From Bacteriovorax sp. (GTDB lineage Bacteria; Bdellovibrionota; Bacteriovoracia; Bacteriovoracales; Bacteriovoracaceae), in the NCBI GenBank assembly GCA_014376445.1, contig JACMRM010000031.1, forward strand, positions 1 to 41,461: a stretch of DNA of 41,461 nucleotides, read 5' to 3'. The notes beneath the pieces are model-generated. The model saw only the letters and a program-made list of their open reading frames with translations, did no database searches and was not told the DNA's origin. Positions 15,040-41,263 of the stretch are shown piece by piece. The position numbers and the translations under genes were made by a program. Numbering within the stretch: the first letter of the stretch is position 1; each line of letters begins with the position of its first letter.

Positions 15040-15040
15040 T

Positions 15041-24471: not shown

Positions 24472-24501
24472 TTGATGTTCAATTCCAGAACATGATAACG
24501 T
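24472..24501 (+). promoter_or_regulatory. Candidate sigma-70-type promoter for the pseI operon
   Basis: A -35-like TTGATG (24472-24477) is followed after 18 bases by a -10-like TAACGT (24496-24501), with an extended TG at 24493-24494. The -10 element is a weak match. It lies 26 bases before the pseI ATG, inside the 164-bp spacer between divergent operons. No transcript evidence is available. Confidence 0.35.
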
Positions 24502-24526
24502 TTAGCCTTAAATTGAGAGCAAAAAT

Positions 24527-25579: not shown

Positions 25580-26535
25580 AAACAGTTTATTTAAAGACTG
25601 ACGGTGATTCTTTTTACGGTCTCGGACATGTCTACAGGTCTATCGCTCTTGCTAAATTTATTGATGAAAATAACCTTAAAACAATTTTTGTCACCGATAA
25701 ACCGGTTTCCAGTGAACTGGTACAAGCACTTCAACAGGCCAATAGAATCTTCATTACTTGTGACGATTTACTAAAATCACATAAAGACACTGACTATTTA
25801 ATTTATGACATGCCTTATTTGGATGAAGTATTTATAAATGCCACTAAAAAATTAAATTTTGTAAAGAAGATTGGCCTGGATTTTTTTTACTATGAAAATG
25901 ATTTTATTGATTCTGCCTTGAATCTTTTTAGTCATGGAGACCCGAAAAAAGCCATTTTTAAAATCAAAGAAAGCATTGCATACGCCATACTTCGCGAACC
26001 TATTTTAAGTTCAGTGCGTGCACTTGAAGTAAATCAATCTGTAGCAAAAAAAATCCTTATAACCTTTGGCTCTACTGATCCAAAAAACAATACATGTTCT
26101 GTTATGAAAGTTATCCCTGATAAAGATCAGATTATAGATATAATCCTCGGGCCACTGTTTAATCACAATGAAGAACTCAAAAAGGTAATTTCAAATTTTA
26201 AAAATAGTAGAATAAACATTTTTAAAAATGTTTCTAACATGGAAGATTTTATTCTTAACACTGGTTATGTTATTTGTGGCGGTGGAACAACGTTACTGGA
26301 AACAATATATTTGTGTAAGCCTGCAATTGTAGTTGCTCAAACTGCCGAAGAGTTAAACTTTGCGAGATCACTTGAAGCTCAAGGGCTATGTTGTGTAATA
26401 GAAAGTAACTCCCTAGATGCTGTTGATTTCAATCAATTCTCTCAATTTGAATTTCAACAAAAGCTTACCAATGGATGTAAAAATATAGAAAACGGATCTG
26501 GGAAAAAATTAATACTTGAAGAATTATTAGGATAA
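25576..26535 (+). CDS. pseG: PseG-like UDP-sugar hydrolase
   Basis: GT-B-fold hydrolase of 319 residues, expected to release UDP from UDP-2,4-diacetamido-2,4,6-trideoxy-beta-L-altrose so that the synthase can use the free sugar. Features: YGLGHVYRS at 14-22 with the catalytic His (H18), ITFGSTDPKNNT at 162-173, and CGGGTTLLETIYLCKPA at 234-250 in the nucleotide-binding half. Length fits the family (~275-350). The start is GTG in a GTGA overlap with the pseI stop, so the two are translationally coupled. The protein is fairly divergent outside the motifs, so a variant substrate is possible. Confidence 0.85.
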   Translation: MKTVYLKTDGDSFYGLGHVYRSIALAKFIDENNLKTIFVTDKPVSSELVQALQQANRIFITCDDLLKSHKDTDYLIYDMPYLDEVFINATKKLNFVKKIGLDFFYYENDFIDSALNLFSHGDPKKAIFKIKESIAYAILREPILSSVRALEVNQSVAKKILITFGSTDPKNNTCSVMKVIPDKDQIIDIILGPLFNHNEELKKVISNFKNSRINIFKNVSNMEDFILNTGYVICGGGTTLLETIYLCKPAIVVAQTAEELNFARSLEAQGLCCVIESNSLDAVDFNQFSQFEFQQKLTNGCKNIENGSGKKLILEELLG

Positions 26536-27185: not shown

Positions 27186-28048
27186 TCATAACAATCGATA
27201 TAGATAATGATTTCATCAGCACTCCCCTGGAGAGCCCCGATACATTATTCTGGACAGGCCTAACAATCGGCCTCCCTAAAATACTTGAAATATTTAATTC
27301 AACTGCGAAAGCTAACGATTCAGTATTGGCGATTACTATTTTCTGTAGAGCAGACTGGCAAATTGAAAAAATTATGGGCCAGGCCGAGTGGGTCTTCCTT
27401 GAAACAAATAAAATTATTTCTTCAGGGAAGTATCAACATTTAAATATTGATCTTCAATGGCACCCTCACCTTTATGAGGAAAACGATGGTAAGTGGTTTC
27501 AGTCTCATGATAATTCAATTCAACGTAATCAGTTGATTGATATTCATAATAAACTAATAAATGCTGGAATTGATGTTAAGTGTACTCGAATTGGCGAATG
27601 CTTTTTTAATAATAACATCCTTGAAACTCTTGTTGAATTAAAAATTAAATTTGATTCAACTGCTTTTCCCGGCAGAGATATTGGACATACCAATTGGAAA
27701 CCTAGTCCAACTCATCCTTATCATCCTGATTTAAGTAATTTTACCAGTGAAGGAAATCAAAAAATTCTTGAAGTGCCATTTTCAATGTTATCTATACATG
27801 CCCCTTACGAAAGGGCTCCTAATTTACGTTATTTAAATCTAATTTTTTCTCCTGAATATACAACATCAGGAATTAAAGATTATTCTGAAAATTTTATTGT
27901 TACAATTCTTCATCCATATGAGATTTTAACTTTAAATCAACCAAACACTCATAAACTTTTTGGTCCAGAAAATTCCATATCAGAAAATGTGAATTTAATT
28001 ACCTCACACTTAAAAACAAAATCAATTCTAGTTAAGGATATTACATGA
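27164..28048 (+). CDS. Divergent polysaccharide deacetylase-like protein
   Basis: Protein of 294 residues with a NodB-like layout but atypical motifs. The first-strand acidic motif is TIDIDNDF at 10-17. A His pair lies in LQWHPHLY at 97-104. CTRIGECFFNNNILETLVE at 140-158 then IKFDSTAFPG corresponds to the substrate-groove segment of deacetylase-like proteins, and TILHPYE near the C-terminus could hold the last His. It may act in the cytoplasm, since no signal peptide is evident. Deacetylation of a 2- or 4-acetamido group in the nonulosonate pathway would fit its position. A different hydrolytic or non-catalytic role is possible. The ATG has AAGGA 9 bases upstream; its stop overlaps the next start as ATGA. 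Confidence 0.65.
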   Translation: MGKIKSLVITIDIDNDFISTPLESPDTLFWTGLTIGLPKILEIFNSTAKANDSVLAITIFCRADWQIEKIMGQAEWVFLETNKIISSGKYQHLNIDLQWHPHLYEENDGKWFQSHDNSIQRNQLIDIHNKLINAGIDVKCTRIGECFFNNNILETLVELKIKFDSTAFPGRDIGHTNWKPSPTHPYHPDLSNFTSEGNQKILEVPFSMLSIHAPYERAPNLRYLNLIFSPEYTTSGIKDYSENFIVTILHPYEILTLNQPNTHKLFGPENSISENVNLITSHLKTKSILVKDIT

Positions 28049-29247
28049 CTTCAAAAAAGGTCCTAACGATAGGTATAGGACAATTTCAATTACTGGGTAT
28101 CGAAACATTAAAAAAGAATGGATATACTGTGATTGGCATTGACGGAAACCAGAATGCCGCTGGTCGTGCTCTATGTGATAAATTTTATCATTGCGAACTG
28201 AATGAAAATGAAAAGATTATTGAGATAGCTAAGAGTGAGAAGGTTGATTTTGCAATTGGATTTGAATGTGACCCGGCCGTAGAGGCTATTAACATAGTTA
28301 ATGAAATGTTAGGACTCCCTGCCCTGAACGAGACGGCACGCAGAACAAACCTGGATAAACTACTGGTTCGTAAAATTCAAAAAGAATTGAAACTAAACAT
28401 GCCCCTAGTATATGAGATTGAAAATCTTGAACAACTTAAAGAGATTGTTCAAAACTCTAACCACCCATGGGTGTTAAAACCCAAAGCTTCCTCTGGTAGT
28501 AGAGGAGTTGAATTAATTGAACAAAACTCTAATATTGAAGCAGCTTTTCAACGATCAAACGTATTTAAGAAAAACACTGATCCCTTGATGCTGGAAGAAT
28601 TTGTACCAGGAAAAGAAATCGCAATAGATGGTTTTGCACATAATGGTGAATGCCATATTTTAACTATCAGCTTTAAAGACAGAACAGCACCACCATATTT
28701 ACTAGATGAAGGACTTTTAATTTCAAATAACATTGAAGATCCTTTGGCAATAGAAGCTAAACGACAGCTAAATGCAATTTTCAACTCAATTCAAGCAGAT
28801 CTATCAAGTCCATTTCATGCTGAATTTCTCTATAATGAGAATGGAGTTTACCTCGTAGAATACAGCTTGCGAGGTGCGGGCTTTAATGTTTTCAGTAAAC
28901 TGATTCCATTAGTTTCTGGATTTGATACTTTAAATTTTCTAATTAACCAATCCAGTGGTTCTGTAGAAAACTGGACTTTTAATTCAAAATCTTTAAATAA
29001 GAATTTATATCTTGGCTTTTTTGACGGAGAAACGGGAATTCTAAAATCTATTGATTTGCCCTCGGATTTAAAAAATGACCCTCTCGTCAACGAATGTAAC
29101 ATTTATGTTTCTGCGGGAGATACAACAAAAAAGTTAAAATCTGGAGCAGACAGACTTGGCCATATCGTTCTTAAAGGTACTGCTTCAGATTCTTTGCGTG
29201 AAAAATTTTATGCGATTAAAAATAAAGTGAAGTTCATCTATGAATAA
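28045..29247 (+). CDS. ATP-grasp family carboxylate ligase
   Basis: ATP-grasp enzyme of 400 residues. A Rossmann-like preATP domain opens with VLTIGIGQFQLLGIETLKK. The ATP-binding core includes WVLKPKASSGSRGVELI (142-158) and MLEEFVPGKEIAIDG (182-196), and the metal-binding HAEFLYNENG...LVEYSLRGAG follows. Enzymes of this fold form an acyl-phosphate and ligate it to an amine, thiol or other nucleophile; many polysaccharide loci carry uncharacterised ones that attach amino acids or make unusual acyl groups. It is coupled by ATGA to the deacetylase-like gene and overlaps the DegT-like gene by 8 bp. The substrate is unknown. The tight link with an aminotransferase and an aldolase points to a small amino-acid or hydroxy-acid building block. 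Confidence 0.82.
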   Translation: MTSKKVLTIGIGQFQLLGIETLKKNGYTVIGIDGNQNAAGRALCDKFYHCELNENEKIIEIAKSEKVDFAIGFECDPAVEAINIVNEMLGLPALNETARRTNLDKLLVRKIQKELKLNMPLVYEIENLEQLKEIVQNSNHPWVLKPKASSGSRGVELIEQNSNIEAAFQRSNVFKKNTDPLMLEEFVPGKEIAIDGFAHNGECHILTISFKDRTAPPYLLDEGLLISNNIEDPLAIEAKRQLNAIFNSIQADLSSPFHAEFLYNENGVYLVEYSLRGAGFNVFSKLIPLVSGFDTLNFLINQSSGSVENWTFNSKSLNKNLYLGFFDGETGILKSIDLPSDLKNDPLVNECNIYVSAGDTTKKLKSGADRLGHIVLKGTASDSLREKFYAIKNKVKFIYE

Positions 29248-30316
29248 AAAAATTGAACTGGAAAATTTTTTTCTTGCTCAGACTGGTTTAAAACAATTAT
29301 CGATTGCTGGTAGGGCCAATGTTTTATTGTATTCCATTTTCAAAACATTGCCTGCTGGCTCTAAAATTTTATTTCCTGCCATTATGTGCACCAGTCCTAT
29401 TATAGTGGCAAAACTTGCTAACATGCAGGCCATACTAGCTGATGTCGACCCAACCAATGGGCTTCTTACAGAAGAAAGTGTTCAAGAAGCTTTAAAGAAA
29501 CACCCAGATCTTAAAGCTATTCTCAGTGTAAATTTATACGGACAAAGACCAGATAATGAAAACATATACGCACTGTGCCAAGATAATAAAATTATTCTCA
29601 TTGAAGACGCGGCATTAGGATGGAATTTTAACTCACTCGGCAAAAATGTTGATATCGCCGTATTAAGTTTTGGAAGTAAAAAGCCTGTTGATTGTAACGG
29701 TGGTGGAGCTGCATTAACTAACAACCAGGAGCTCCATAATTCCGTTGAAGAAATTATAAAAAATATTCAATTCACTTCAAACGAAAAAATTCAAACTCTT
29801 TCAGGACTTTATACCCGCCTTTATTATTTATTACAGGAATGGGAAGAGTCAGTTCCTACTTCTCAAATTAACTTTGCTCATTTTCAGGATGCTCTAAGTG
29901 AACTTTATTTAAAAGACGATAGCACTGTTAACCTAGGGAATATCTTGAGCTCTCTGGAAAACTATCAGGAGAATGTTGAATCCCGTTTTTATTGGGCCAA
30001 AAAATACGAAGATTATTTTCAGAATACAACGCTCTTTAAAAATTTTATGCACCTGGAAAAGGGTCTTGGGATTTGGCGTTACAGTGTGATGTACACTGGA
30101 AAAAACAGGAATAAATTTTTAAAATATATTAGAGAAAACAAATTAGATGTATCATCGTGGTATCCTTCACTTGAGAAACTAGGTTTTGGAACAGAGGATT
30201 CAAAATTAATAAATGCTCAGTTATTTTCTGACAGAGTAATAAATTTTTGGGTCTCAGATATTAATGAAGAAATATTTTCAAACACAATTAAAATAATAGA
30301 TAGCTTTAGGGAGTAA
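29240..30316 (+). CDS. Divergent DegT/DnrJ/EryC1-type PLP protein
   Basis: PLP enzyme of 358 residues with a DegT-like plan but weak motifs. The PLP Asp is in LIEDAALGWN (D123). The likely Schiff-base Lys is in LSFGSKKPVDCNGGGAALT, where K147 or K148 precedes a GGG instead of the usual G-E-G-G. The N-terminal half keeps GxNVLLYS and LFPAIMCTSPI segments resembling the aldehyde-binding start of the family. It could aminate a keto sugar, serving as a PseC substitute, or act on the product of the neighbouring aldolase. It sits between the ATP-grasp gene (8-bp overlap) and the aldolase gene (1-bp gap), so the three were probably acquired together. Confidence 0.7.
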   Translation: MNKKIELENFFLAQTGLKQLSIAGRANVLLYSIFKTLPAGSKILFPAIMCTSPIIVAKLANMQAILADVDPTNGLLTEESVQEALKKHPDLKAILSVNLYGQRPDNENIYALCQDNKIILIEDAALGWNFNSLGKNVDIAVLSFGSKKPVDCNGGGAALTNNQELHNSVEEIIKNIQFTSNEKIQTLSGLYTRLYYLLQEWEESVPTSQINFAHFQDALSELYLKDDSTVNLGNILSSLENYQENVESRFYWAKKYEDYFQNTTLFKNFMHLEKGLGIWRYSVMYTGKNRNKFLKYIRENKLDVSSWYPSLEKLGFGTEDSKLINAQLFSDRVINFWVSDINEEIFSNTIKIIDSFRE

Positions 30317-30317
30317 T

Positions 30318-32192
30318 ATGAAAAATGTAGAAATTCTAGATTGCACACTGAGAGATGGTAGCTACTTAATTAATTTCCAATTCAATACAAATGATACCCA
30401 CCACATTTCAAAACTTCTTGAAAAATCGGGGATTAAATATATTGAAGTCGGACATGGCCTTGGCCTGGATGCGACAGATAAGACTTCTTCTCTAGAAAGT
30501 GATATCGATTACATCAAAGCAGCGAAACAAGCCGTAACAAAATCTAAAATCGGTGTTTTTTACATTCCTGGTATTGGGAATATGGACTCTATCAAAAGAG
30601 CAGTTGATGCTGGTTTAGATTTTATCCGTATTGGAGTTAACGTTACTGAGTATAAGAATGCTGAAGAAACAATTAATTATGCTAAAGGCCTTGGGCTGGA
30701 AGTGTGGATTAATTTAATGAAAACATACACAGTAGATTTCACCGAGTGGAGAAATATCTGTGAATATTTAAAAACTATGAAATGCGATCACCTCGCCGTT
30801 GTAGACTCTGCAGGTGGAATGCTTCCAGCTGACGTAAAAAAATATTGTGAAATTGCTAAAGAAGTTACTCCATTTGGAATTGGATTTCATGGGCACAACA
30901 ATATGCAACTTGCGATCGCAAACTGCATGGCCGCAGTAGAGGGCGGAGCAACTTTCGTAGATGGAACGCTTTTTGGAATGGGAAGAAGTGGTGGAAATGC
31001 CAACACTGAAATCCTTGCAGCTATTTTCAACCGCGAAGGAATTATTACAACTTATGATTCAGAATTTTTAATCGAAATAGCTAATGAAATTATAGCCCCT
31101 ATTGCCAGAAAAAACCCGGGCGATGGAGCCGTTGAACTAGCTGCTGGAGTAAATTATTTTCACTCAAGCTTTTTCTCAACAGTTAAGAAAACATGTGATG
31201 AAACTAATACAAGTATCTTCAGAACGATTATCAATCTTCCGACAGAATCTAGGAAGTCAGTTTCAAAAGAAATGGTGAGCGAGACTGTTAAGAAAATTTC
31301 AAAAAACACTGAGCCGCTAACCAGACTTAAAGAATCAAATACTCTTTACATTAACAACATAACTGAACTTTCAAAATACCTTAAAGAAGTATCAAGTAAA
31401 ACTAATTGCAAGATCGCAGTCAGCGTTTCTCTTGAACCTAAACTTACTGAGAGTTTCAGAGTAAGTAATATCTACACTCTTGAAGAAATGATTGTTGGTC
31501 ACATTGAATTTTCTGATTTTAAAGAATTATCGCAACTAATGGATAGCTTAAAAAAGCTTGTTAATTTCTGGGTACTGGACACAAAATTAAAAGAGTCTTT
31601 AACTCAATTACCAGAACTGCCATATTATTTTTACGATGAAGAACTTCTGGAAATCAACACACTAAGAAATGAATTGATGAATTCCAATAGAACCATTCTT
31701 ACGTCAAATAATTTAAATAAACTGGCCGCTGATAATAGTTATTCTTCTAATGGCGTAAATTCAGAAGGCAATATTTTGGTCATTAATCAGGATACTAAAG
31801 AAATCAATAATGAGGTTGTGAAACAACTTTCTAAGAAAGACCAAATTTTGTTAACACACAAGTGCCAAATCAGCGATGAATCATGGGAAATAATCAAATC
31901 GAAAGAAATTGATGTTAGAAGAGTGAACTACACTCTGTCGTTAGCTTATGAGATCAAAAAAATCATTAGACTTAAAGACCTCGTTGAATCAAGAGGCCAT
32001 TATGAAAAAGACGGTCTAGAAGTTGTCAGTGGTGGAATCGTCAGTAAAAAAGGTGCAATCATTGTAGATAACAGTAAAAATCCTACCATCATTCTTGGAA
32101 TTACTGATGGCCAGGGTGGAGTAAATATTATTGATTCAAAAAACCTGGATCTGATAAAAATTCGTGAAGCTATATTCGCTGAAACCAAATAA
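30318..32192 (+). CDS. DmpG-like pyruvate aldolase with a long unassigned C-terminal half
   Basis: A 624-residue protein. Residues 1-~310 form a DRE-TIM (HMGL-like) aldolase closest in plan to 4-hydroxy-2-oxovalerate aldolase: DCTLRDGSY at 8-16, VVDSAGGMLP at 161-170, metal-binding HGHNN at 191-195, GMGRSGGN at 220-227 and AAGVNYFHSSFFSTVKKT in the following helical region. Stand-alone DmpG is ~345 residues, so about 300 residues are extra, and I recognise no domain in them. Divalent-metal aldol chemistry with pyruvate is the family expectation. The partner aldehyde dehydrogenase usual for DmpG is absent, so degradation is unlikely and synthesis of a hydroxy-keto-acid is more plausible. GGGAG lies 5 bases before the ATG. 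It is the last gene of the plus-strand operon, before a hairpin. Confidence 0.75.
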   Translation: MKNVEILDCTLRDGSYLINFQFNTNDTHHISKLLEKSGIKYIEVGHGLGLDATDKTSSLESDIDYIKAAKQAVTKSKIGVFYIPGIGNMDSIKRAVDAGLDFIRIGVNVTEYKNAEETINYAKGLGLEVWINLMKTYTVDFTEWRNICEYLKTMKCDHLAVVDSAGGMLPADVKKYCEIAKEVTPFGIGFHGHNNMQLAIANCMAAVEGGATFVDGTLFGMGRSGGNANTEILAAIFNREGIITTYDSEFLIEIANEIIAPIARKNPGDGAVELAAGVNYFHSSFFSTVKKTCDETNTSIFRTIINLPTESRKSVSKEMVSETVKKISKNTEPLTRLKESNTLYINNITELSKYLKEVSSKTNCKIAVSVSLEPKLTESFRVSNIYTLEEMIVGHIEFSDFKELSQLMDSLKKLVNFWVLDTKLKESLTQLPELPYYFYDEELLEINTLRNELMNSNRTILTSNNLNKLAADNSYSSNGVNSEGNILVINQDTKEINNEVVKQLSKKDQILLTHKCQISDESWEIIKSKEIDVRRVNYTLSLAYEIKKIIRLKDLVESRGHYEKDGLEVVSGGIVSKKGAIIVDNSKNPTIILGITDGQGGVNIIDSKNLDLIKIREAIFAETK

Positions 32193-32248: not shown

Positions 32249-33571
32249 TTAATTAAATTTTCTAAATACCGGCTTAACAGCATCACCGATTAAATACTTT
32301 TCAAAACCTTCTTCAGTTGCTTTTTTAAGTACTCCACAAGCATCTTTAAATGCTTCCACTGCGTAATTTAAATGCTCTTGTTGATGAGCTAAACTTGGAA
32401 CTACATAAGGCATAAGAATGCCTCTTGCACACAATTCCTGCATGAACAAAGTTCTAGCGGGAGCTGATATTTCCCCTTGTCCATTTCTAAAAGAAAATCC
32501 AGGTTTACATCCATAACCGATAATATCAACCAAGTGAGCTGCACCAGAATCCTGTGCTGCTTTTCTCATTCCTTCCTGTAATAATCGTCCAGTTGTATAA
32601 AAATGTTCTATGGCATTTTTATTTTGAATTTCTTTGATTGTTGCTATTGAAGCGGCCAGTGAATGAGTCTCTCCGCCATGAGTAGTTGATAATAAAAAAA
32701 CTCTTTCCTGGTCGTGTCCTAATCCACCTAATTTCATAAATTCTTTTTGTCCAACTAACGCTGAAACAGAGAATCCATTGGCCATCGCTTTTCCAAATGC
32801 TGATAGATGTGGCGTTACTCCAGCAATCACCTGCGCTCCACCAATATGAAATCTAAAACCAGATACGACTTCATCAAAAATTAACAATGATCCATTTTTT
32901 TCACATAAATCTTTAAGACCTTGTAAAAAACCCGGTGCAGGTTCAGTCGCCGCAATTGGCTCAAAAATAAAACAAGCAATTTTTCCTGGATATTGATCAA
33001 AAAGTGCTTTAGCGGAATCAAGATTATTGTACTCAAATTTAAGAGTTAAATTTGAAATGGCCTCTGGCACTCCTCTATTCATCACAGTTGAGCCTATGAA
33101 CCAGTCATGAATTGAGTTAAAAGGATCGGAAGCGCATCTAACGACATAGTCTCGGCCAGTATAAGCTCTTGCTAACTTCACAGCTGCAGTGACCGCATCC
33201 GAACCATTTTTACCAAATTTCACCATTTCTGCAGAAGGAATAATCGAATTCATCAATTCGGCCAGTTCACCCTCTAGATAAGACGGTCTTACAAAATTGC
33301 AGCCACGTGATAACTCTTTTTGAGCAGCTTCAATAACTGGCCCATATGCATGTCCGAGAATTACTGTTCCCAAACTCATTCCAAGATCTAGCCATTTATT
33401 TCCATCTACATCATAAATATGTGCTCCTTCTCCACGGTCTATAATTCTTGGAGCATTAGCCGGAAATTGATCATCACCTTTCGAGTAAGTATGTGCTCCA
33501 CCTGGAATTAAAGCCTGAGCTTTTTTGGCCATTTCAATGTTCTTATCGAGTTTAATATTTTTTGTTTCCAT
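32249..33571 (-). CDS. Glutamate-1-semialdehyde-aminomutase-like class III aminotransferase
   Basis: Class III PLP enzyme of 440 residues with motifs GKNGSDAVTAA (120-130), LIFDEVVSGFR (230-240) and SAFGKAMANGF (257-267), where K261 should bind PLP. This is the glutamate-1-semialdehyde 2,1-aminomutase branch, but setting and overall make-up point away from haem synthesis: it is last in a glycan operon and separated by 1 bp from an aldo/keto reductase. HemL-like proteins in polysaccharide loci probably aminate or transpose an amine on a sugar-related substrate. It could be the amination step absent from the pseudaminic-type pathway, or act on the KdsB-like branch. It is the final gene before the terminator. 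Confidence 0.85.
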   Translation of the reverse strand: METKNIKLDKNIEMAKKAQALIPGGAHTYSKGDDQFPANAPRIIDRGEGAHIYDVDGNKWLDLGMSLGTVILGHAYGPVIEAAQKELSRGCNFVRPSYLEGELAELMNSIIPSAEMVKFGKNGSDAVTAAVKLARAYTGRDYVVRCASDPFNSIHDWFIGSTVMNRGVPEAISNLTLKFEYNNLDSAKALFDQYPGKIACFIFEPIAATEPAPGFLQGLKDLCEKNGSLLIFDEVVSGFRFHIGGAQVIAGVTPHLSAFGKAMANGFSVSALVGQKEFMKLGGLGHDQERVFLLSTTHGGETHSLAASIATIKEIQNKNAIEHFYTTGRLLQEGMRKAAQDSGAAHLVDIIGYGCKPGFSFRNGQGEISAPARTLFMQELCARGILMPYVVPSLAHQQEHLNYAVEAFKDACGVLKKATEEGFEKYLIGDAVKPVFRKFN

Positions 33572-33572
33572 A

Positions 33573-34436
33573 CTACTTTTCCCATTTTGAAGGATTTAAA
33601 AGTCCTTTTTCATAGTTATTGATTTCTAAAATTTTTTCTTTTATTTTTTCTGATACATTTTTTTGAGCAGACATTAAATTTCTATCCAATTGCTCAATCG
33701 TATCAACTCCAAATACGATGCCATCGATGCAATCAAATGAATTAACGAATCCAAAACATAAATCCTCGACACTTAAGCCTTCGCTATTTCTGATAGCATG
33801 TAAAGATTCAAGTGCAGGCTTAAAACTTATCAAATTCCCTGTAAGTTGATTTATGTCCATATAAAAAATTCCTTGCAAAAAAATAGATCTCACATGAATT
33901 TCTTTTTTTAATTTTTTAGCCATTTCAAGTAATGCGATTTTTTTGGGATCTGAATCAAACAAATTAAATGGAAGTTGTATTGTATCGACCGCAGGGTCAT
34001 TGATTGCAATTTCTAATTCTTCATTGGAATACAAAGACACACCAATCTTTTTAATTAATCCCTGTGATTTTAATTCCTGAGAAATTTCATTTAAGTTTTT
34101 AAGTTTTTTATAATCATTGAATCGGTGAAACGAGTAACCTTCAATTGAAGTGCTGCTTAATCTTTTAAGAGATTCATTTAAATGACCGATAATTGTTTCA
34201 GATTCATTTTCAAGAATAAACTTACTCATGATATTGAATTTATCGCCAAATTCACTTGAGTAATCTTCTAATACTTCCAGAGCATCGCCATACAGGTCTG
34301 AGGTATCTAGGTCTCTGATATTAAGTTCATAGGCCTTATTTAGTATTTTAAAAATTTCTTCACGACTGGCCTTCCCAATAGAATTATTAATTCCATACTC
34401 AAGACCAAATTGAACTGTTCCTAAAATTAATTTCAA
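33573..34436 (-). CDS. Aldo/keto reductase
   Basis: NAD(P)H-dependent aldo/keto reductase of 287 residues. The catalytic tetrad is intact: D44 and Y49 in LDTSDLYG, K72 in IMSKFIL and H104 in GYSFHRF. The start is TTG at 34436, overlapping the preceding stop as TTGA, with GGAG 6 bases upstream, so it is coupled to the GNAT protein. Next comes the aminomutase-like gene after 1 bp. A keto group made by the dehydratase or the aminotransferase may be its substrate. AKR members next to nonulosonate genes are known but their roles are mostly untested, so the reaction is not assigned. Confidence 0.85.
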   Translation of the reverse strand: MKLILGTVQFGLEYGINNSIGKASREEIFKILNKAYELNIRDLDTSDLYGDALEVLEDYSSEFGDKFNIMSKFILENESETIIGHLNESLKRLSSTSIEGYSFHRFNDYKKLKNLNEISQELKSQGLIKKIGVSLYSNEELEIAINDPAVDTIQLPFNLFDSDPKKIALLEMAKKLKKEIHVRSIFLQGIFYMDINQLTGNLISFKPALESLHAIRNSEGLSVEDLCFGFVNSFDCIDGIVFGVDTIEQLDRNLMSAQKNVSEKIKEKILEINNYEKGLLNPSKWEK

Positions 34437-35386
34437 CTTGACTCCAAACTTACTTCAAAAAAATTCTGAATTCTCACTTCTGAAGAAAGCCCTCTTTTAA
34501 ATTTTGCAATGGCTTCTTCTTTCTCATTAGCAAATTCAAGTCCTGTCTTTCCAAGGTTAAATGTTTTAAGTCCCAATTCTTTAGCATGCATGATTGCTTT
34601 AACCATGATTGCGTGGCCGATTGGTTTTTTATCAAACATCAAACCTCTGTCATTCACAGCTACACCGTAAAAAGCTTCGCTTTGGCCAACCAAGATTAAT
34701 ACACCGGCAACAAGTTTATTTTCCAGATAACCTAATTCCAGGAATGCATTTCCTTGTTTAATCATTTCAAATTGCAAATCCCAGGTTTGTTTGGATCTAG
34801 TTTCCTTACCTGAAACTTGGATATGAAATTCTCGAAAAGAATCGAACGCTTCGTAATTACAATTATTCAAATCAATTCGAACAAATTTCATTTCACGATT
34901 TCCCCAGTTAATCAATGAGCGAAAACTTCTTCTCATTCCCTTTCTAATGATTTCGTATGAGCAGGATAAATTTATGAACGATTCGTAATAAGAATTCATT
35001 TTAAATGGTAATTTCTGAAGGCCTGAAAATAAACTGGTATCGAAGAATAGACTAAGTTTAGTAATCTCTTTATTTTCTAGTTTTTTTTCAAAAAAACTTA
35101 AAAGCACTTGATAAAGTTCAAACTGATCATCGGCCCCTAGATCTTCTTTCCAAAAAATTTTTATGGGTGAATTAAAAAAAGTCATCACATTATCTTCTTC
35201 AGTGTAGAAGAATAAACCTTTCAAAACTTCTTCTTTAATTAACAATCCAACTCGAGGAACCATGCCTGCATTATAAGCTGCAGAGTATTCAATTGATTTA
35301 ACTGAAAATGCATATACTTTTTTTGCATCTGGAATTTCCTCCAAGTACTGCTGAAAATTGCTGGTATCTATTTTGAGTTGATACAT
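34433..35386 (-). CDS. FemAB/GNAT-fold acyltransferase
   Basis: A 317-residue protein with a tandem-GNAT layout. A core around 180-285 includes GKETRSKQTW, LELGYLENKLVAGVLIL and IGHAIMVKAIMHAKELGLKTFNLGKTG, typical of the BioF2-like acetyltransferase or FemAB group. FemAB proteins transfer aminoacyl groups from tRNA; the shorter relatives in glycan loci acylate sugar amines. Its TAATG junction with pseB (1-bp overlap at 35386) and the absence of a canonical PseH make it the prime candidate for acylating the 4-amino group of the PseB-derived sugar, perhaps with something other than acetyl. This is inference from position. Confidence 0.72.
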   Translation of the reverse strand: MYQLKIDTSNFQQYLEEIPDAKKVYAFSVKSIEYSAAYNAGMVPRVGLLIKEEVLKGLFFYTEEDNVMTFFNSPIKIFWKEDLGADDQFELYQVLLSFFEKKLENKEITKLSLFFDTSLFSGLQKLPFKMNSYYESFINLSCSYEIIRKGMRRSFRSLINWGNREMKFVRIDLNNCNYEAFDSFREFHIQVSGKETRSKQTWDLQFEMIKQGNAFLELGYLENKLVAGVLILVGQSEAFYGVAVNDRGLMFDKKPIGHAIMVKAIMHAKELGLKTFNLGKTGLEFANEKEEAIAKFKRGLSSEVRIQNFFEVSLESS

Positions 35387-36396
35387 TAGTATGTAAAGCT
35401 CGGATCCACGTATGTCTTAATAAGAGTTCTTAAGTCGTCTGCATCGACCCATTCAGTGTTAGTTTCAGAATTATATTTAAATCCTTCAGGAACTTTTTTA
35501 GCATTGAAAGTTTTAATCCACTTATCCATATCCCATAGATTTACAGATGGTGCGATTACATAATATTTTCCGCAATCGTAAGTAGACATAGCGTCTGTCT
35601 CTGAAATCATTTCCTCGTGAAGTTTTTCTCCTGGGCGAATGCCTATGACTTCAACTTTACAATTAGGAGCTACGGCCTTAACGACTTCATTAATTTTATA
35701 TGAAGGAATTTTAGGTACGAATAATTCTCCCCCCCAGGCATTCTTGATTGCATACATAACCATATCTACACCTTCTTCAAGTGTTATATTAAAACGGGTC
35801 ATACTCTCGTGAGTTACTGGAAGAATTCCATCTTTTCTTTTATTTAAAAAGAAAGGAACGACTGATCCCCTCGAACCAAGTACATTTCCATAACGAACGA
35901 CTGAAAATTTTAAATTACGGTTTCCTTTAATGTTGTTAGCAGCAATAAACAATTTATCTGAACAAAGTTTTGTAGCACCATAAAGATTAATAGGCGCACA
36001 TGCTTTATCAGTAGAAAGGGCCACGACTGTTTGAACACCACAATCTAAAGCAGCATTCACAACATTTTCTGCACCATTAATATTTGTATTGATACATTCG
36101 ATAGGATTGTATTCAGCAATTGGAACATGTTTAAGTGCAGCTGCATGAATGATTACATCAATATTTTCGCATGCTCTTTTTAGTCTTTCAGCATTTCTTA
36201 CGTCTCCAATAAAAAAACGAAGTTGAGGATATTTATTATCAGGAAACATCTGGGCCATTTCATATTGCTTTAATTCATCACGAGAATAAACAACAACACG
36301 CTTTACACCTGGATAATCTCTAAAAATCGTTTCAATAAATTTTTTACCGAATGAACCTGTACCACCAGTAACCAGAATACTCTTACCATTTAACAT
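35386..36396 (-). CDS. pseB: UDP-GlcNAc 4,6-dehydratase (5-inverting)
   Basis: Extended-SDR enzyme of 336 residues, first in the pseudaminic acid route, turning UDP-GlcNAc into UDP-2-acetamido-2,6-dideoxy-L-arabino-hexos-4-ulose. TGGTGSFG at 10-17 binds the cofactor, and KKFIETIFRDYPG follows as in PseB. STDKACAPINLYGATK gives the catalytic Asp-Lys-Tyr (D130, K131, Y139), the variant triad of FlaA1/PseB enzymes. VVRYGNVLGSRGSV and IRPGEKLHE are also family phrases. The start has AGGA 7 bases upstream. The 106-bp gap before it contains an AT-rich ATAATAATA at about 36421-36430, so it may have its own promoter inside the minus-strand block. Confidence 0.93.
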   Translation of the reverse strand: MLNGKSILVTGGTGSFGKKFIETIFRDYPGVKRVVVYSRDELKQYEMAQMFPDNKYPQLRFFIGDVRNAERLKRACENIDVIIHAAALKHVPIAEYNPIECINTNINGAENVVNAALDCGVQTVVALSTDKACAPINLYGATKLCSDKLFIAANNIKGNRNLKFSVVRYGNVLGSRGSVVPFFLNKRKDGILPVTHESMTRFNITLEEGVDMVMYAIKNAWGGELFVPKIPSYKINEVVKAVAPNCKVEVIGIRPGEKLHEEMISETDAMSTYDCGKYYVIAPSVNLWDMDKWIKTFNAKKVPEGFKYNSETNTEWVDADDLRTLIKTYVDPSFTY

Positions 36397-36502: not shown

Positions 36503-37165
36503 TTAGAGTTCAGCAATTACTGTTACAGGGGCCCCATCTGCATTCCTGACAAGCATTGGAGACACTGTTATCTTCTTCGGCTGGGCCTCTAAAAGATCAA
36601 GTTTCATATCTTCAATAACTCTCAGAGGTTGATTTTCTCCCTCTGTCCCAAGGAATTCTTTGTGAGCAATCCTTCCTAAAGGTCTATTGGGAAAGGAAGT
36701 AATTGATATAAAATCAAAACCAACCACTTTCAGAGCAGGGCGGTTTTTTCTTAGCCATTTTGCAAGATCAGGAGAGAGCCCTGGACCATTTGACCAATAT
36801 AGAGAAGTGTTGCGATGCTGCTGAAAATTAGTTTTTATTAGCAAGATGTCACATTGCTGTGGAATAAAATCAAATTCAGCGCCAGGTGTAATAATTTGAT
36901 TTTCACGAACTTCGATAGAGAGTAAATACGGAGACGTAAAAATCCAGTCAGAGGCTTCAAATTGATCGAGTCGTTTGCCTAAATCATCAAAGTGGGATGG
37001 AAGATCAATATGCGTTCCTACATGATTTGATAGAATCCATTGTTGAGAATTTGAAGTCGCACCTTGTGAGATTTCACTCACGTGCTTAGCTTCAAAAGAT
37101 TTTACTCCACCGTATCCGGGAGTTAGCTCATCTAAAAAATGGCTTAAAAAAATTATTTTATTCAT
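36503..37165 (-). CDS. Cyclase-family (kynurenine-formamidase-like) metal hydrolase
   Basis: Protein of 220 residues in the cyclase family that includes KynB formamidases and polyketide cyclases. The signature NHVGTHIDLPSHF at 47-59 supplies the metal ligands (H48, H52, D54, H58). The reaction in this family is usually amide or lactone/ester hydrolysis at a metal centre. Here it follows the KdsB-like gene with a 1-bp overlap and precedes the gap before pseB. Hydrolysis of an N-formyl group or lactone on a sugar acid would fit, but that is inference. Tryptophan degradation is unlikely because no other kynurenine gene is present. Confidence 0.8.
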   Translation of the reverse strand: MNKIIFLSHFLDELTPGYGGVKSFEAKHVSEISQGATSNSQQWILSNHVGTHIDLPSHFDDLGKRLDQFEASDWIFTSPYLLSIEVRENQIITPGAEFDFIPQQCDILLIKTNFQQHRNTSLYWSNGPGLSPDLAKWLRKNRPALKVVGFDFISITSFPNRPLGRIAHKEFLGTEGENQPLRVIEDMKLDLLEAQPKKITVSPMLVRNADGAPVTVIAEL

Positions 37166-37941
37166 TACTTTATATACGCTTTAAGGAGAGGATCATTTTG
37201 CATAAAAGCTGATGCTTTTTTCAAATCATTAGGAGTATCGACGGCCTGACTTTCATTAACAATTTTTACCATGAAAATTGGATCATCATTTTCAAGCACT
37301 CTGTTCATATCAACTGACTCTACTTCCTCAAGCATCGTTGGCGCGAGTTCAGAGTATTTAATTAAATAATCACGGGTAAAAGAAATTACGCAAACTTGTT
37401 TATACATTGGAAAATTTTTTCCACCTTTTTTCCATGAAGGTATCGCTTCACGAGAAAAGTAGATTGCATTTGAACCTTTGCTTAAAACGACTTTTACACA
37501 ATTTGGATCTTCGTGTTCTTCTTTCGTTTTAATTTCACTGTAAAGATTAACTAGTGAAATTTTCTCATTAGTTAAAATAGGAGCAACGGATGCTTCAATC
37601 ATTGACGGAACAACCATTGGCTCATCACCTTGAATCATAACGATAGCATCGTATTTACAATTATTTTCTATCTCGATTTTAAGTAAGGCTTCGTATGTTC
37701 TCTCAGTGCATCTCTCATGAGTGTCCTTAGTCATCACAGCTTTTCCACCAATGGACTGAACGTAATCAAAAATAACTTTGTCACATGTTGCTACATAAAC
37801 ATCGTCAACAGTCTCACAAAGTTTAGTTCTTAAATAAACATGTCCAATCATGGGCATACCAAGAATTTCGGCCATCGGTTTACCTGGAAAACGTGAACTT
37901 CCCATTCTCGCGGGGATAATTGCTACTGATCTTTTTTTCAT
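37165..37941 (-). CDS. KdsB-like CMP-sugar-acid synthetase
   Basis: Nucleotidyltransferase of 258 residues (KdsB is ~250). IPARMGSSRFPGKPM at 9-23 is the CTP-binding signature, with MIQGDEPMV at 102-110. HERCTERTYEA at 75-85 stands where KdsB has its S-G-T-D-R motif, so this part of the sugar site is changed. It should activate a 2-keto-3-deoxy sugar acid with CTP, not necessarily KDO. The companions are not KdsA or KdsD but an HpcH/HpaI aldolase, an SDR and a HAD phosphatase in the same operon. The start overlaps the HAD stop by 4 bp (37938-37941). This is a second CMP-activating gene besides the SpsF-like one at 23598. Confidence 0.85.
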   Translation of the reverse strand: MKKRSVAIIPARMGSSRFPGKPMAEILGMPMIGHVYLRTKLCETVDDVYVATCDKVIFDYVQSIGGKAVMTKDTHERCTERTYEALLKIEIENNCKYDAIVMIQGDEPMVVPSMIEASVAPILTNEKISLVNLYSEIKTKEEHEDPNCVKVVLSKGSNAIYFSREAIPSWKKGGKNFPMYKQVCVISFTRDYLIKYSELAPTMLEEVESVDMNRVLENDDPIFMVKIVNESQAVDTPNDLKKASAFMQNDPLLKAYIK

Positions 37942-38636
37942 TTTCTAGCCTCGTTATCTTTAGTTATAATATTATTAAGTTCATTTAAGTTCCCGACAGT
38001 AAGATAAAAATGATCTTCAACATCCTTTCTGTCTTCCCATTCTGTAAAATCTTTCATAAAAATAAAATTCATCTTAAAATCGATAGCACTCTGATAATCG
38101 GTATAAGAATCTCCAATGAAAATTCCTTTGCCCTTAATTTTACCATGTTCTTTTAAAGAATTTAGATTTTGCTTTTTATTTTTTGGAGATCCAAGTACTG
38201 CTTCAAAATACTCTTCAATGTTAGTTCGTTTTACTATTGCCTGGACTTCAGTTTCAGCTGCTCCGGAAACAATGAAACATTTTTTACCGGTCTTTTTTAA
38301 AGTCTGAAGTAAGCTTAAAGATCCCTCCGTTAACTCCAGTAACTCTAAAGCATCTGCAATAAAAGTTGTAAAACGGCTTACAAGTAATTCTGTTTTACTC
38401 TTGATTTCATTTTCGTTTTCTAATTTGATTATATTTCTAAGGAAATAATCAAACTTCCCCCATCGGGAAACACCACCATGGAATTTATGATATTCGATAA
38501 ATTCTTTTTTTTCTTTCTCTGAAAACTCAGATATTGAATCTAAAAAAATTTGCGTTTTGAGTGGAGTGGAATTAACCAGGACTCCATCAAAATCAAAAAT
38601 TACAAAATCAAAATCTTTACTATTTATTTTTGTCAC
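37938..38636 (-). CDS. HAD-family phosphatase
   Basis: HAD hydrolase of 232 residues from GTG 38636. Motif I is IFDFDGVLVNS at 13-23 (nucleophile D15, acid D17), a helical cap follows, then FIVSGAAETEV (motif II), a Lys in LGSPKNKK (motif III) and FIGDSYTDYQSA (motif IV). The phosphoglycolate-phosphatase-like subfamily handles small sugar phosphates. In context it could dephosphorylate a ulosonate-8- or -9-phosphate before the KdsB-like step, as KdsC does. A longer TTG start at 38684 would overlap the SDR gene by 65 bp. The GTG has GGAAGAGA upstream and a 17-bp overlap. Confidence 0.82.
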   Translation of the reverse strand: MTKINSKDFDFVIFDFDGVLVNSTPLKTQIFLDSISEFSEKEKKEFIEYHKFHGGVSRWGKFDYFLRNIIKLENENEIKSKTELLVSRFTTFIADALELLELTEGSLSLLQTLKKTGKKCFIVSGAAETEVQAIVKRTNIEEYFEAVLGSPKNKKQNLNSLKEHGKIKGKGIFIGDSYTDYQSAIDFKMNFIFMKDFTEWEDRKDVEDHFYLTVGNLNELNNIITKDNEARK

Positions 38637-39498
38637 TGTGATAAATCTCTTCCATGACTCCCAGAAGCCCCTGCCCCAAATCAACTTGTAGCTGAGGGAC
38701 CATTTTTCTTCCTGGTTTTGGATTAAAACTATAAGGTGTCATAATGTAATGGGACGAACCTAAGCCCGGATCTTCACTTATTATATCAACATTTTTATGG
38801 AGCATTTCTTTGATCATTTTTAAAACATCACCAACTTCATAAAGTTGTGAACCAGTGAGAATTATATTTTGATTAATGTATTCAGATTTTAAAATTTCAA
38901 CACTGGCCAATGCAGCGTCTTCTACGTGAATGTATTCACGTTTCGCTTTTAGATCGCCTTTATAGACAATTTTATCATTCTTAATTGCACTTTCCACAAA
39001 ACGGAAAATTCCATTTCGTTTATCTGCTCTTCCACCATAAAGTGAACCATATCTTAAAATGGTATAATCGAGGCCATAGGTTTGAGCATAAGTTTCAACA
39101 TAATCTTCGCTCGCCTGCTTACTCGCTCTATAGAACGAACCTGTTTTGCTATACACGTACATTGTGGAAGCAAAAATAAATCTCTTAACGCTAGCCAGTC
39201 TGCAAGCTTCAAGAATATTTACATTTCCTAAAATATTATATTTAACTGTCTCAATCGGAAGATTTTTTGCTTCATCGATGTCCGCAATACCAGCGAAGTT
39301 GAAAACTGCGGTAGCACCTTTTACTGCATTTACAACCTGATCCAGATTTAAGATGTCACCAATGATTATTTCCTGACCTTCTTTCTTGTAAGCAGAATCC
39401 TTAGCATCAAAAATAACTACTTCATAACCAGCATGATGTAACTTATCTGCAACATGGGAACCTAAAAAACCTGACCCACCAAAAACTACAACTTTCAT
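38620..39498 (-). CDS. NAD-dependent epimerase/dehydratase (extended SDR)
   Basis: Extended SDR of 292 residues. FGGSGFLGSH at 6-15 binds NAD(P), IFASTMYVYS supplies the catalytic Ser (S111) and FYRASK supplies Tyr and Lys (Y123, K127). LRYGSLYGGRAD is the usual downstream substrate segment. The length is slightly short for nucleotide-sugar epimerases (310-340). The substrate may be a sugar or sugar-acid precursor of the KdsB-like branch. It overlaps the aldolase stop as ATGA (39495-39498). Whether it epimerises, dehydrates or reduces cannot be read from the sequence. Confidence 0.85.
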   Translation of the reverse strand: MKVVVFGGSGFLGSHVADKLHHAGYEVVIFDAKDSAYKKEGQEIIIGDILNLDQVVNAVKGATAVFNFAGIADIDEAKNLPIETVKYNILGNVNILEACRLASVKRFIFASTMYVYSKTGSFYRASKQASEDYVETYAQTYGLDYTILRYGSLYGGRADKRNGIFRFVESAIKNDKIVYKGDLKAKREYIHVEDAALASVEILKSEYINQNIILTGSQLYEVGDVLKMIKEMLHKNVDIISEDPGLGSSHYIMTPYSFNPKPGRKMVPQLQVDLGQGLLGVMEEIYHSDKNK

Positions 39499-40271
39499 AT
39501 TAATCCTTTTAACTCTGAATTTACATTTGCTGAAATATGCAAAAATGTCCCATCAATCGAATAAGGTAAAAATTTATACCCTTCCTGAATTTTCATTTTC
39601 AATTGAGCAATCTCTGGTTTTACAACATGGAAACCCATGGTCTTTTTTGCTTTTAAACATTTTTCTTTGAAAGTTTGTAATGCTTTTAAAAAATCCGGGT
39701 GGTCAAACTGGCCGGTTATTCCCATGGAAGCTGATAAATCATATGGTCCGATCATTAATGCATCCACTGCTTTGACTGTTAGAATTTCATCCAAATTGTT
39801 AATTGCATTGATATGCTCGATTTGTGCCACAATGGTGAGGGAGTTATTAATTGCACCATAGTAACTTTCAAAATTTTTTCCATAAGTATTGGCCCGAGAA
39901 AAACCTACACCTCTGATACCTAGAGGAGGATATTGCATTTCAGTGATTATATCTTGAAGCTGTTTAGCAGACTCAATCATCGGAACAATAATTCCAGTCG
40001 CTCCTGCATCAAGGGCAGTTTTAACATCTTTTCTTGTTCCCACGGCCAGTCTCACGAATGGTTGAGAACCGTGAAGTTCAATGGCCCTGAAAACATCCGG
40101 GAGCTCTCCTGGACTAAATGAACCATGTTCTAAATCAATGGCAATCCATTCATATCCCGATTGAGCTAATATTTCCGCTATAGATGGATGCGATATCTGC
40201 ATCCAGGTTCCTACAGAGACTTCTCCGTTTCTAATTTTCGTCTTTAATTTTTTTGCATTTTCTAAATTCAT
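39495..40271 (-). CDS. HpcH/HpaI family aldolase
   Basis: Class II metal-dependent pyruvate aldolase-type TIM barrel of 258 residues. AIDLEHG at 44-50 is the family active-site motif (Glu-His dyad). PFVRLAVG follows (Arg binding the keto-acid carboxylate), then GIIVPMIESA (93-102), IEHINAINNLDEI (E152 as metal ligand) and IGPYDLSASMG (174-184). These enzymes reversibly add pyruvate to aldehydes, giving 4-hydroxy-2-oxo acids. Beside a KdsB-like synthetase the synthetic direction would make a 3-deoxy-2-keto sugar acid; aromatic degradation is unlikely. It is 2 bp downstream of the dehydrogenase gene. Confidence 0.87.
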   Translation of the reverse strand: MNLENAKKLKTKIRNGEVSVGTWMQISHPSIAEILAQSGYEWIAIDLEHGSFSPGELPDVFRAIELHGSQPFVRLAVGTRKDVKTALDAGATGIIVPMIESAKQLQDIITEMQYPPLGIRGVGFSRANTYGKNFESYYGAINNSLTIVAQIEHINAINNLDEILTVKAVDALMIGPYDLSASMGITGQFDHPDFLKALQTFKEKCLKAKKTMGFHVVKPEIAQLKMKIQEGYKFLPYSIDGTFLHISANVNSELKGLI

Positions 40272-40273
40272 TA

Positions 40274-41263
40274 TTAAACCTTTAAGAGGGAGATTTCTTT
40301 ATCAAGATCAACCGGAGAAATTAGTGGTTCATCTTTAAAAAAATGAATAACATCTTCCACTGTTTCTTTTTCCATTCTTTTACGAGCCTCAACCGAACAT
40401 GAACCCATGTGCTGAGTGAGAATCACTTTTTCTGAATTACAGAACTCACCAAAGTAAGGCTCTTTATTAAAAACATCCAGTCCTGCACCAGCAACATGCC
40501 CGGAATTAAGAAATTTAATCAAATCACTTTCATTAATGATTCCACCTCTTGCTGTATTAATCAGTAAAATATCTCTCTGCATTTTAGAAAGTACATCTTC
40601 AGTAATTAAGTTTTCAGTTTTAGGTGTTTTTGGAACGTGTAGTGAAATTATTTCTGACTGTGTAACCAGCTCATCAAAAGAAACTTGAAAAATATTCAAA
40701 CCAAGATTTTTCAATTGTTGAATTTCATCTTTTTTATCTAATATATCGTTCACAAGAATTTTTACGGGTTTAAACGGTGATAGCATTTCAGCAACTCTTA
40801 AACCAATTCTTCCAAAACCTAAAAGACCAATTGTTTGCTCATTTAAACTTTTTCCTTCGAAACGTTGCCAGCCTTTATTTCTAATAGCTTTATCGGCAGT
40901 GTGAATTTGTCTCGTGAGAGAAATCATCATTCCTAAAGTTAATTCTGCAACAGCATCAGTAACAGCATCGGGCGTGTAACAAACTTTTATTCCTTTATCT
41001 TTACAAATTTGCAAAGGAACAGAATCAAGACCGATTCCAATTCTGGCAATAAGTTTTAAAGTTTGGCTCTTTTCAATTAAAAATGAGAGGTCCTCGGTGC
41101 CAACAATAACGGCTGTAGCATCATGAGCAAGCTCATAGAGCTCTTCACCACTTAATTTTCTGCCCTTATCATTTAATTTAAATTCAAGGCCACTCTGTCT
41201 TAAAATATTAAGAGGCTCTGAGGATGTACGAGAAAATGGAAATGTTGAAACTACTACTTTCAA
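40274..41263 (-). CDS. D-isomer-specific 2-hydroxyacid dehydrogenase (SerA-like)
   Basis: NAD-dependent dehydrogenase of 329 residues. GLLGFGRIGLRVAEML (146-161) is the dinucleotide-binding motif, and the catalytic Arg, Glu and His are R239 in NTARGGI, E268 in DVFNKEPY and H285 in TQHMGSCS. It lacks the C-terminal ACT domain of biosynthetic SerA, which suggests a pathway-specific 2-hydroxy/2-keto acid conversion instead of serine supply. The TTG at 41263 has AGGGTGG 8 bases upstream and gives the family-like N-terminus MKVVVSTFPF. A GTG at 41320 would add 19 residues without such a site. It may supply or reduce the keto acid used by the aldolase two bases downstream. Confidence 0.86.
   Translation of the reverse strand: MKVVVSTFPFSRTSSEPLNILRQSGLEFKLNDKGRKLSGEELYELAHDATAVIVGTEDLSFLIEKSQTLKLIARIGIGLDSVPLQICKDKGIKVCYTPDAVTDAVAELTLGMMISLTRQIHTADKAIRNKGWQRFEGKSLNEQTIGLLGFGRIGLRVAEMLSPFKPVKILVNDILDKKDEIQQLKNLGLNIFQVSFDELVTQSEIISLHVPKTPKTENLITEDVLSKMQRDILLINTARGGIINESDLIKFLNSGHVAGAGLDVFNKEPYFGEFCNSEKVILTQHMGSCSVEARKRMEKETVEDVIHFFKDEPLISPVDLDKEISLLKV

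Follow-up and report, generated by a model that had tools for sequence, protein, structure and literature searches.

Six consecutive genes in a contig of Bacteriovorax sp. form a conserved set, shared by widely divergent bacteria and partly present in archaea. Judged from their sequences, they probably specify the synthesis and CTP-dependent activation of an acidic sugar of 3-deoxy-ald-2-ulosonic type, distinct from Kdo and destined for a surface glycan. Direct observations comprise the gene content, the specific co-occurrence of the genes, their kept catalytic and changed residues, and occurrence in genomes without KdsA or WaaA matches. The window (the whole stretch of DNA analysed, 41,461 nt) carries all six ORFs on the minus strand within nt 36503–41263, where a preliminary description had placed them:

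40274–41263, minus strand: DH, D-2-hydroxyacid dehydrogenase family (PF02826/PF00389, 2-Hacid_dh)
39495–40271, minus strand: ALD, HpcH/HpaI-type class II pyruvate aldolase (PF03328, 117.4 bits)
38620–39498, minus strand: SDR, extended NAD-dependent epimerase/dehydrogenase (PF01370, Epimerase)
37938–38636, minus strand: HAD phosphatase (PF13419, HAD_2/Hydrolase)
37165–37941, minus strand: KdsB-like CMP-sugar-acid synthetase, distinct subfamily (PF02348, 154 bits)
36503–37165, minus strand: CYC, cyclase/kynurenine-formamidase-type metal hydrolase (PF04199, 63.7 bits)

The Pfam matches agree with the families named for all six genes in a preliminary description of this DNA, and measurement of the junctions confirmed that the genes overlap or abut with gaps of at most 2 bp. 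DH and ALD are separated by 2 bp, ALD and SDR overlap by 4 bp, as do HAD and the KdsB-like gene, and the latter overlaps CYC by 1 bp. SDR and HAD also overlap, to an extent set by the choice of HAD start codon (probably GTG at nt 38636; the ORF list had TTG at nt 38684). The start codon of DH is likewise uncertain (TTG at nt 41263 or GTG at nt 41320).

Co-occurrence of the set in other genomes, on which the preliminary description had made its proposal depend, was looked for and found, with all six genes together in 14 of 90 loci, not all of which are independent because L036 and L051 are an identical stretch. Test loci were those of the best 80 of at least 552 relatives of the KdsB-like protein, and represent three archaea and a wide range of bacterial phyla, with 20 of the 80 titled Desulfovibrio. 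Near the KdsB-like gene, ALD was present in 66 of these 80 loci, SDR in 50, DH and HAD in 46 each, and CYC in 20, counts that lean upwards since the partner models were built in part from test loci. Put the other way, 60 of the same best 80 lack CYC, 34 lack DH and 14 lack ALD, and five have no partner whatsoever, though contig ends truncate some loci. None of the five partners was found at 20 control loci with ordinary KdsB genes, and 20 NeuB control loci gave one DH and no ALD, SDR, HAD or CYC (Fisher p for co-occurrence, 2.6e-12 for ALD and 0.011 for CYC), although all 40 controls are from the window's phylum (one from the genome of the window itself), a narrower range than the many phyla of the 80 test loci. 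At E 1e-6, the controls showed no match to ALD, CYC or HAD, and their SDR matches reached 107 and 196 bits, under the 320-bit threshold. The 10 test loci inside the window's phylum carried ALD and DH (six each), CYC and HAD (four each) and SDR (three). Within that phylum, 9 of 11 genomes with a KdsB-like match of at least 169 bits have an ALD match (E ≤ 1e-40), compared with 14 of 230 overall, a comparison that uses hand-set score limits and assumes that the 230 genomes searched for ALD lie within the 240 searched for KdsB. Five of the 14 phylum genomes have ALD but no KdsB-like gene; two of these (G067 and G147) carry a PseF-like replacement, and in a third (G195) the aldolase is distant and falls outside the clade described below.

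The preliminary description combined all six genes into a single CMP-sugar-acid pathway. The conserved set, the aldolase in place of KdsA and the altered KdsB relative support this in part, but DH and CYC are less constant than ALD (46 and 20 versus 66 of the best 80 of at least 552). It is conceivable, though unlikely, that two pathways meet at one locus, with ALD and the KdsB-like enzyme producing one CMP-sugar and a DH-SDR-CYC-HAD block making or modifying another. Such a division would fit several loci (e.g., L049, L057, L080) in which the ALD and KdsB-like pair lies kilobases away from the block, the 20 Desulfovibrio-titled loci, where DH is found in four and CYC in none, and the second KdsB-like gene of L046, L059 and L063. 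It fits poorly with the window, where all six genes run together with one cytidylyltransferase, and with L192 and L193, where five run together with a cytidylyltransferase of another type. In the 90 loci, the adjacencies ALD-SDR and SDR-KdsB-like, each seen 15 times, also speak against separate pathways. The single pathway is further favoured by the 41 of 90 loci in which the KdsB-like gene directly follows ALD.

For the single pathway, we infer the direction of the aldolase, the order of the steps and the product, as well as what DH, SDR and CYC contribute. ALD would couple pyruvate with a sugar-derived aldehyde, and HAD would dephosphorylate either the acceptor or, like KdsC, the aldol product. 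CMP would then be transferred from CTP onto the C2 hydroxyl by the KdsB-like enzyme. The acceptor may be prepared or tailored by SDR, DH and the metal hydrolase, through redox or epimerisation reactions and by opening of a lactone or amide, and the CMP-sugar would be consumed by a transferase of GT-B type whose gene lies nearby.

The CMP-Kdo pathway proceeds by C–C bond formation, dephosphorylation and CMP transfer (KdsD, KdsA, KdsC and KdsB). The gene set shows the same step logic and a KdsB-family activating enzyme, but has an HpcH/HpaI-type pyruvate aldolase where the Kdo pathway uses the PEP enzyme KdsA, as the preliminary description had recognised. It also differs in its altered KdsB residues, in a HAD protein whose 20 NCBIfam matches at E 0.001 do not include a KdsC model, and in the additional SDR, DH and metal hydrolase, the last two already described as adding steps absent from Kdo synthesis. 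The reported absence of KdsA holds for the cluster but not for the genome, in which KdsA (C14:5948–6730) and an ordinary KdsB (C14:3565–4227) share a contig away from the gene set. Given this pair, the gene set is an addition to Kdo synthesis and not a replacement for it. KdsA and WaaA were surveyed in 50 genomes of the 80 loci, picked for diversity and including many incomplete assemblies. KdsA scored over its cut-off in 32 of the 50, and 13 of the 50 had neither KdsA over cut-off nor a WaaA match; among these 13, ALD was nearby in nine and all six genes were present in L050 and L066. Both the host's ordinary pair and the 13 genomes without KdsA or WaaA matches make Kdo an unlikely product.

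In alignments, the KdsB-like protein retains the catalytic core of its family while five residues differ. The nucleotide and metal residues R12, S15, R17, K21, Q104, D106 and D235 (window numbering) are the commonest residues in both the subfamily (n = 83) and ordinary KdsB (n = 18), D106 and D235 aligning with D100 and D235 of E. coli KdsB. The five differences are R77, Q182, I186, D211 and M212, which correspond to E. coli S74, H181, Y185, E210 and Q211. All five occur together in 77 of 83 relatives, whereas the 19 ordinary KdsB rows, including the atypical L020, never show the full pattern. The first difference lies in the S-G-T-D-R-type motif, correctly described beforehand as changed, which in the window reads HERCTER (residues 75–81). 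Scores against curated models are mixed: the protein reaches 162.2 bits against TIGR00466 (cut-off 155.2), 186.1 against the equivalog NF003948 (cut-off 281) and 200.4 against NF003950 (cut-off 234), and exceeds the cut-offs of the subfamily models NF009905 and NF003952. Plasmid and phage records matched it at below 60% identity in all cases (78 of 78 and 7 of 7; 25–40% in the 15 and 7 rows listed, respectively), and no subfamily member was recognised among them, as judged from identity.

These data bear on whether an aldolase route that bypasses KdsA could yield Kdo or a near stereoisomer, with the KdsB-like enzyme acting as a second CMP-Kdo synthetase of the sort found in capsule systems. 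Among characterised families KdsB is the nearest, the best PDB match is a CMP-Kdo synthetase and the TIGR00466 cut-off is exceeded, yet we consider this distinctly improbable. The five E. coli positions are altered in nearly all relatives, and four of them fall, by interpolation, within the Kdo-binding C-terminal domain (PMC3149649). Moreover, an aldolase route to Kdo would be redundant in the 32 of 50 genomes that have KdsA.

HpcH/HpaI aldolases of known function act in breakdown, which speaks against a synthetic role for ALD. ALD belongs to the same family as RhmA, HpaI and GarL and shares the class II metal and pyruvate residues H49, R74 and E152 (69 of 69 aligned rows) and D178 (68 of 69). 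Its relatives form their own clade, in which Tyr177 and His215 take the places of an Ala and a Leu in RhmA and HpaI; H49, R74, E152, Y177, D178 and H215 are jointly present in 67 of 69 rows. ALD differs further from the catabolic enzymes in its glycan gene surroundings and in scores below the equivalog cut-offs for HpaI (167.7 of 368.8 bits) and RhmA (163.9 of 441) and the cut-offs for GarL (NF007849, 145.8 of 393; TIGR03239, 139.4 of 406.75). Characteristic residues of the other partners are kept in at least 93% of rows: D20, D22, D181, D185, R63 and K66 of HAD (numbered from base 38651; 50 rows), S111, Y123 and K127 of SDR (54 rows), R239, E268 and H285 of DH (52 rows), and H48, G50, T51, H52, D54, P56 and H58 of CYC (24 rows). 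Short rows were left out before counting (four for ALD and one each for HAD, DH and CYC). The single pathway gains support from L053 and L059, whose DH carries a fused cytidylyltransferase-like domain at the N-terminus. That domain may be non-catalytic, as the usual R-x-x-S-x-R motif is absent by eye and the Pfam scores are near the cut-off of 22.6 (27.1 bits in L053 and, slightly below, 21.9 in L059). A structure model of the fusion was too poor for use (pLDDT 43).

NeuB-type pathways for nonulosonic acids (sialic, legionaminic and pseudaminic) also end in a CMP-activated ulosonic acid. A link to the gene set is provided by L192 and L193, from one genus, where ALD-SDR-CYC-HAD-DH form a single run with a cytidylyltransferase that is PseF-like in L192 and a close relative of it in L193. 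The set itself has the aldolase instead of a NeuB-type synthase. Genes of a pseudaminic type are also present in the window:

35386–36396: PseB, over its NCBIfam cut-off, the next gene downstream of the six-gene set
24527–25579: PseI, over its NCBIfam cut-off
23598–24362: a further cytidylyltransferase, adjoining PseI

The position of PseB, and the NeuB-looking clusters (by eye) in 13 loci and second type of cytidylyltransferase in 16 among the relatives, could suggest that the six genes serve this pathway or nonulosonic acid synthesis generally. The 13 and 16 loci indicate that nonulosonate genes often share islands, and a role for the six genes in such synthesis is very improbable: a further cytidylyltransferase already adjoins PseI, just three of 90 loci (L040, L043 and L074) have a PseB-type match above 400 bits, ALD is in 0 of 20 NeuB control loci, and the L192 and L193 runs are without PseB matches.

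The candidate for the transferase step of the proposed pathway comes from proteins encoded after HAD in other loci (directly adjacent eight times). All share a His-Pro pair and a Glu, both invariant, and in nearly every case a Ser stands five residues before the Glu. The His-Pro resembles the (K/R)xHP named as a CMP-binding motif in PMC12887879. Relatives at E 1e-6 were found at 24 of the 80 loci (best of at least 552), at none of the 20 KdsB controls and at two of the 20 NeuB controls (31 and 26 bits). A structure model (pLDDT 86.6) gave generic GT-B fold matches, with no CMP-sugar transferase named among the best 50 of 1477, so that this role remains a lead. The window encodes a distant relative of the candidate at nt 5073–6791.

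Among the charged sugars of microbial surfaces, CMP-activated ulosonic acids hold a key place, and the routes to them known to us begin with KdsA- or NeuB-type synthases. Klebsiella K38, which contains a 3-deoxy-pentulosonic acid, was considered for hints about the product and set aside, the main text of PMC4616057 giving no hit in a term search for aldolase, cytidylyltransferase, HpcH or ulosonic. The parts of PMC10433991 and PMC12579266 available held nothing bearing on the gene set, and searches of open-licence PMC listed no paper recognisable as an account of it. There is perhaps an even chance that the set makes an undescribed CMP-activated sugar acid by a pyruvate-aldolase route independent of KdsA and NeuB, in many bacterial phyla and some archaea, with the near-fixed Arg77, Gln182 and Asp211-Met212 of the KdsB-like enzyme, and His215 of ALD, marking a new acceptor that possibly has a second acidic group (a ulosaric acid). 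The residue fingerprint offers a simple means of finding the KdsB-like subfamily. If the proposal is true, there would be a third, aldolase-based route in organisms as varied as Bacteroidota, Desulfovibrio, Syntrophomonas and archaea, the name kdsB would be wrong for a group of genes that bear it, including some in genomes where Kdo genes were not found, and the surfaces of these organisms would carry a sugar perhaps missed by glycan analysis.

The gene cluster around the KdsB-like CMP-sugar-acid synthetase relative (37165-37941) is arranged as follows:

36503-41263, minus strand: six ORFs, in order of transcription a D-2-hydroxyacid dehydrogenase family protein (DH), an HpcH/HpaI-type aldolase (ALD), an NAD-dependent epimerase/dehydrogenase (SDR), a HAD phosphatase (HAD), the KdsB-like protein and a cyclase/kynurenine-formamidase-type metal hydrolase (CYC)

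The DH/ALD gap is 2 bp and every other junction overlaps, the size of the SDR/HAD overlap varying with the choice of HAD start. The window is one entire contig (41461 bases); the host genome, 3.41 Mb in 284 contigs, is 87.8% complete. Genes upstream of DH are therefore cut off.

The six-gene row is not a chance arrangement. For the KdsB-like protein, the best 80 of 552 relatives defined the loci compared, and their bacterial titles include Saprospiraceae, Ignavibacteria, Campylobacterales, Syntrophomonas, Pelagibacteraceae, Kryptoniota, Cloacimonadota, Desulfovibrio, Elusimicrobia, Omnitrophota, Dehalococcoidia and others. Three are archaeal (Hadarchaeum, Woesearchaeota, Methanoregula) and carry only ALD and the KdsB-like gene, with CYC and HAD also present in Methanoregula; two of these three loci are short or stop at a contig end. 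Partners exceeding fixed scores were found in the 80 loci as follows: ALD 66, SDR 50, DH 46, HAD 46 and CYC 20 (ALD 44, DH 35, SDR 34, HAD 33 and CYC 15 in the 50 loci with more than 8 kb on both sides). None of the five partners occurred at 20 ordinary KdsB control loci, and 20 NeuB control loci gave one DH and no other partner (Fisher p = 2.6e-12 for ALD, but only 0.011 for CYC). One of the six families was present in 5 loci, two in 14, three in 11, four in 21, five in 16, and all six together in 13 of the 80, as well as in 1 of 10 loci from the phylum of the window. Across these 90 loci the commonest neighbour pairs were ALD-KdsB-like (41), DH-SDR (19), ALD-SDR (15), SDR-KdsB-like (15), CYC-HAD (14) and SDR-CYC (13).

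By sequence, the KdsB-like protein represents a separate subfamily. Set against E. coli KdsB and 18 rows of ordinary KdsB, it retains a core of R12, S15, R17, K21, Q104, D106, S163, R164, E205, E208, R214 and D235. The E. coli residues S74, H181, G183, Y185, E210 and Q211 are replaced by R77 (83/83 relatives), Q182 (82/83), C184 (74/83), I186 (79/83), D211 (83/83) and M212 (80/83), respectively. The full R, Q, I, D, M pattern occurs in 77 of 83 relatives but in no ordinary row out of 19; one of these ordinary rows, L020, matches neither residue type. In a tree rooted on E. coli, the 84 KdsB-like sequences, including that of the window, form a single clade (support 0.97). Second KdsB-like genes occur in the same cluster at three loci (L046:18082-18855, L059:15397-16146 and L063:13002-13748), and these branch outside the remaining 81 sequences, a placement that is weakly supported (0.45). 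H181 and its neighbours contact Kdo in the E. coli enzyme. In Aquifex KdsB, CTP is bound by the N-terminal domain and residues 100-210 form the Kdo-binding domain (PMC3149649); when mapped by interpolation, all of the changes except R77 fall into the latter.

The window aldolase is none of the catabolic enzymes against which it was tested: it scores well below the HpaI, RhmA and GarL cut-offs. It groups with the linked aldolases and six further phylum copies in a 75-member clade (support 0.84) that excludes RhmA and HpaI as well as five phylum homologues that are more distant. His49, Arg74, Glu152 and Asp178 are retained, while His215 (69/69 rows) and Tyr177 (68/69) replace the Leu and Ala of RhmA/HpaI. 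His215 is the better clade marker, since the five distant homologues have Tyr177 but not His215; the corresponding Leu position lines the aldehyde pocket. At another locus (L201:2-1524), a different HpcH-type aldolase immediately precedes a KdsB-family gene in which the eight residues checked match neither ordinary KdsB nor the subfamily, perhaps another aldolase-CMP pairing.

Two genomes of one genus (L192, L193) carry an ALD-SDR-CYC-HAD-DH run that ends in a PseF-like cytidylyltransferase in place of the KdsB-like gene (105 bits in L192, below the 205.7 cut-off; the L193 counterpart is a close relative), and in two loci (L053, L059) an N-terminal cytidylyltransferase-like domain, which may be inactive, is fused to DH. 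This replacement and these fusions link the parts of the set to CMP activation, and they point to DH being part of the same pathway. Against the link, ALD and DH lie beside a Gfo/Idh oxidoreductase in L194 and L195, where the KdsB-like model found no cytidylyltransferase, and among the 14 genomes of the phylum in which an aldolase matched, 5 have no KdsB-like gene. In L194, L195 and L202, ALD and DH have Gfo/Idh oxidoreductase or SIS-domain genes in their neighbourhood, and the KdsB-like model gave no match close by; the L202 genome has its KdsB-like gene on a different contig.

Kdo is an unlikely product of the six-gene set. In the host, an ordinary KdsA (339.8 bits, cut-off 314) shares a contig with an ordinary KdsB. 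Among 50 other subfamily-bearing genomes, 32 carry KdsA above the cut-off, 37 carry WaaA and 13 show neither, with the caveat that genes may be missing from incomplete assemblies. The aldolase is nearby in 9 of these 13 genomes, and all six genes are present in two of them: L066 and L050, the latter an isolate of Syntrophomonas wolfei.

The window also carries a second nonulosonic-type gene set:

22459-26535 and 32249-36396: PseI (469.6 bits, cut-off 340.25), PseB (522 bits, cut-off 407.75), class III aminotransferase PRK06209, an aldo/keto reductase and a FemAB-like protein
23598-24362: cytidylyltransferase (PF02348)

CDP-6-deoxyhexose genes (12375-15805) specify glucose-1-phosphate cytidylyltransferase and CDP-glucose 4,6-dehydratase, both over cut-off, accompanied by a PseC/WecE-like aminotransferase. 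Region 28045-32192 encodes an ATP-grasp-like protein, an ORF that by eye resembles an aminotransferase (no NCBIfam match at 1e-30), and an HMGL-type protein related to 4-hydroxy-2-oxovalerate aldolase that carries a long C-terminal extension. Large proteins at 5073-6791 and 20896-22479 gave no Pfam or NCBIfam match; the former is distant kin of TIGR04326-like transferases found after HAD in other loci.

The family chemistry of the six enzymes is established; the order of steps and the substrates are what we infer. In ALD, a metal-bound pyruvate enolate would attack a sugar aldehyde; HAD would remove phosphate, and its R63 and K66, both basic and conserved, could bind a further anionic group. 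The KdsB-like protein would add CMP, SDR and DH would provide redox or epimerisation steps, and the CYC metal hydrolase would open a lactone or amide. ALD, SDR, HAD and the KdsB-like gene are all found in 42 of 90 loci, and the 20 Desulfovibrio-titled loci include SDR 18, ALD 15, HAD 14, DH 4 and CYC 0 times; on these counts the four are taken as the core and the other two, DH and CYC, as modifiers. No description of the set came up in searches of the open-licence literature. It would work like CMP-Kdo synthesis, but the changed residues mean that its KdsB-like member lacks a feature tested for ordinary KdsB, and on both grounds we count the set as a variant of CMP-ulosonic acid synthesis.
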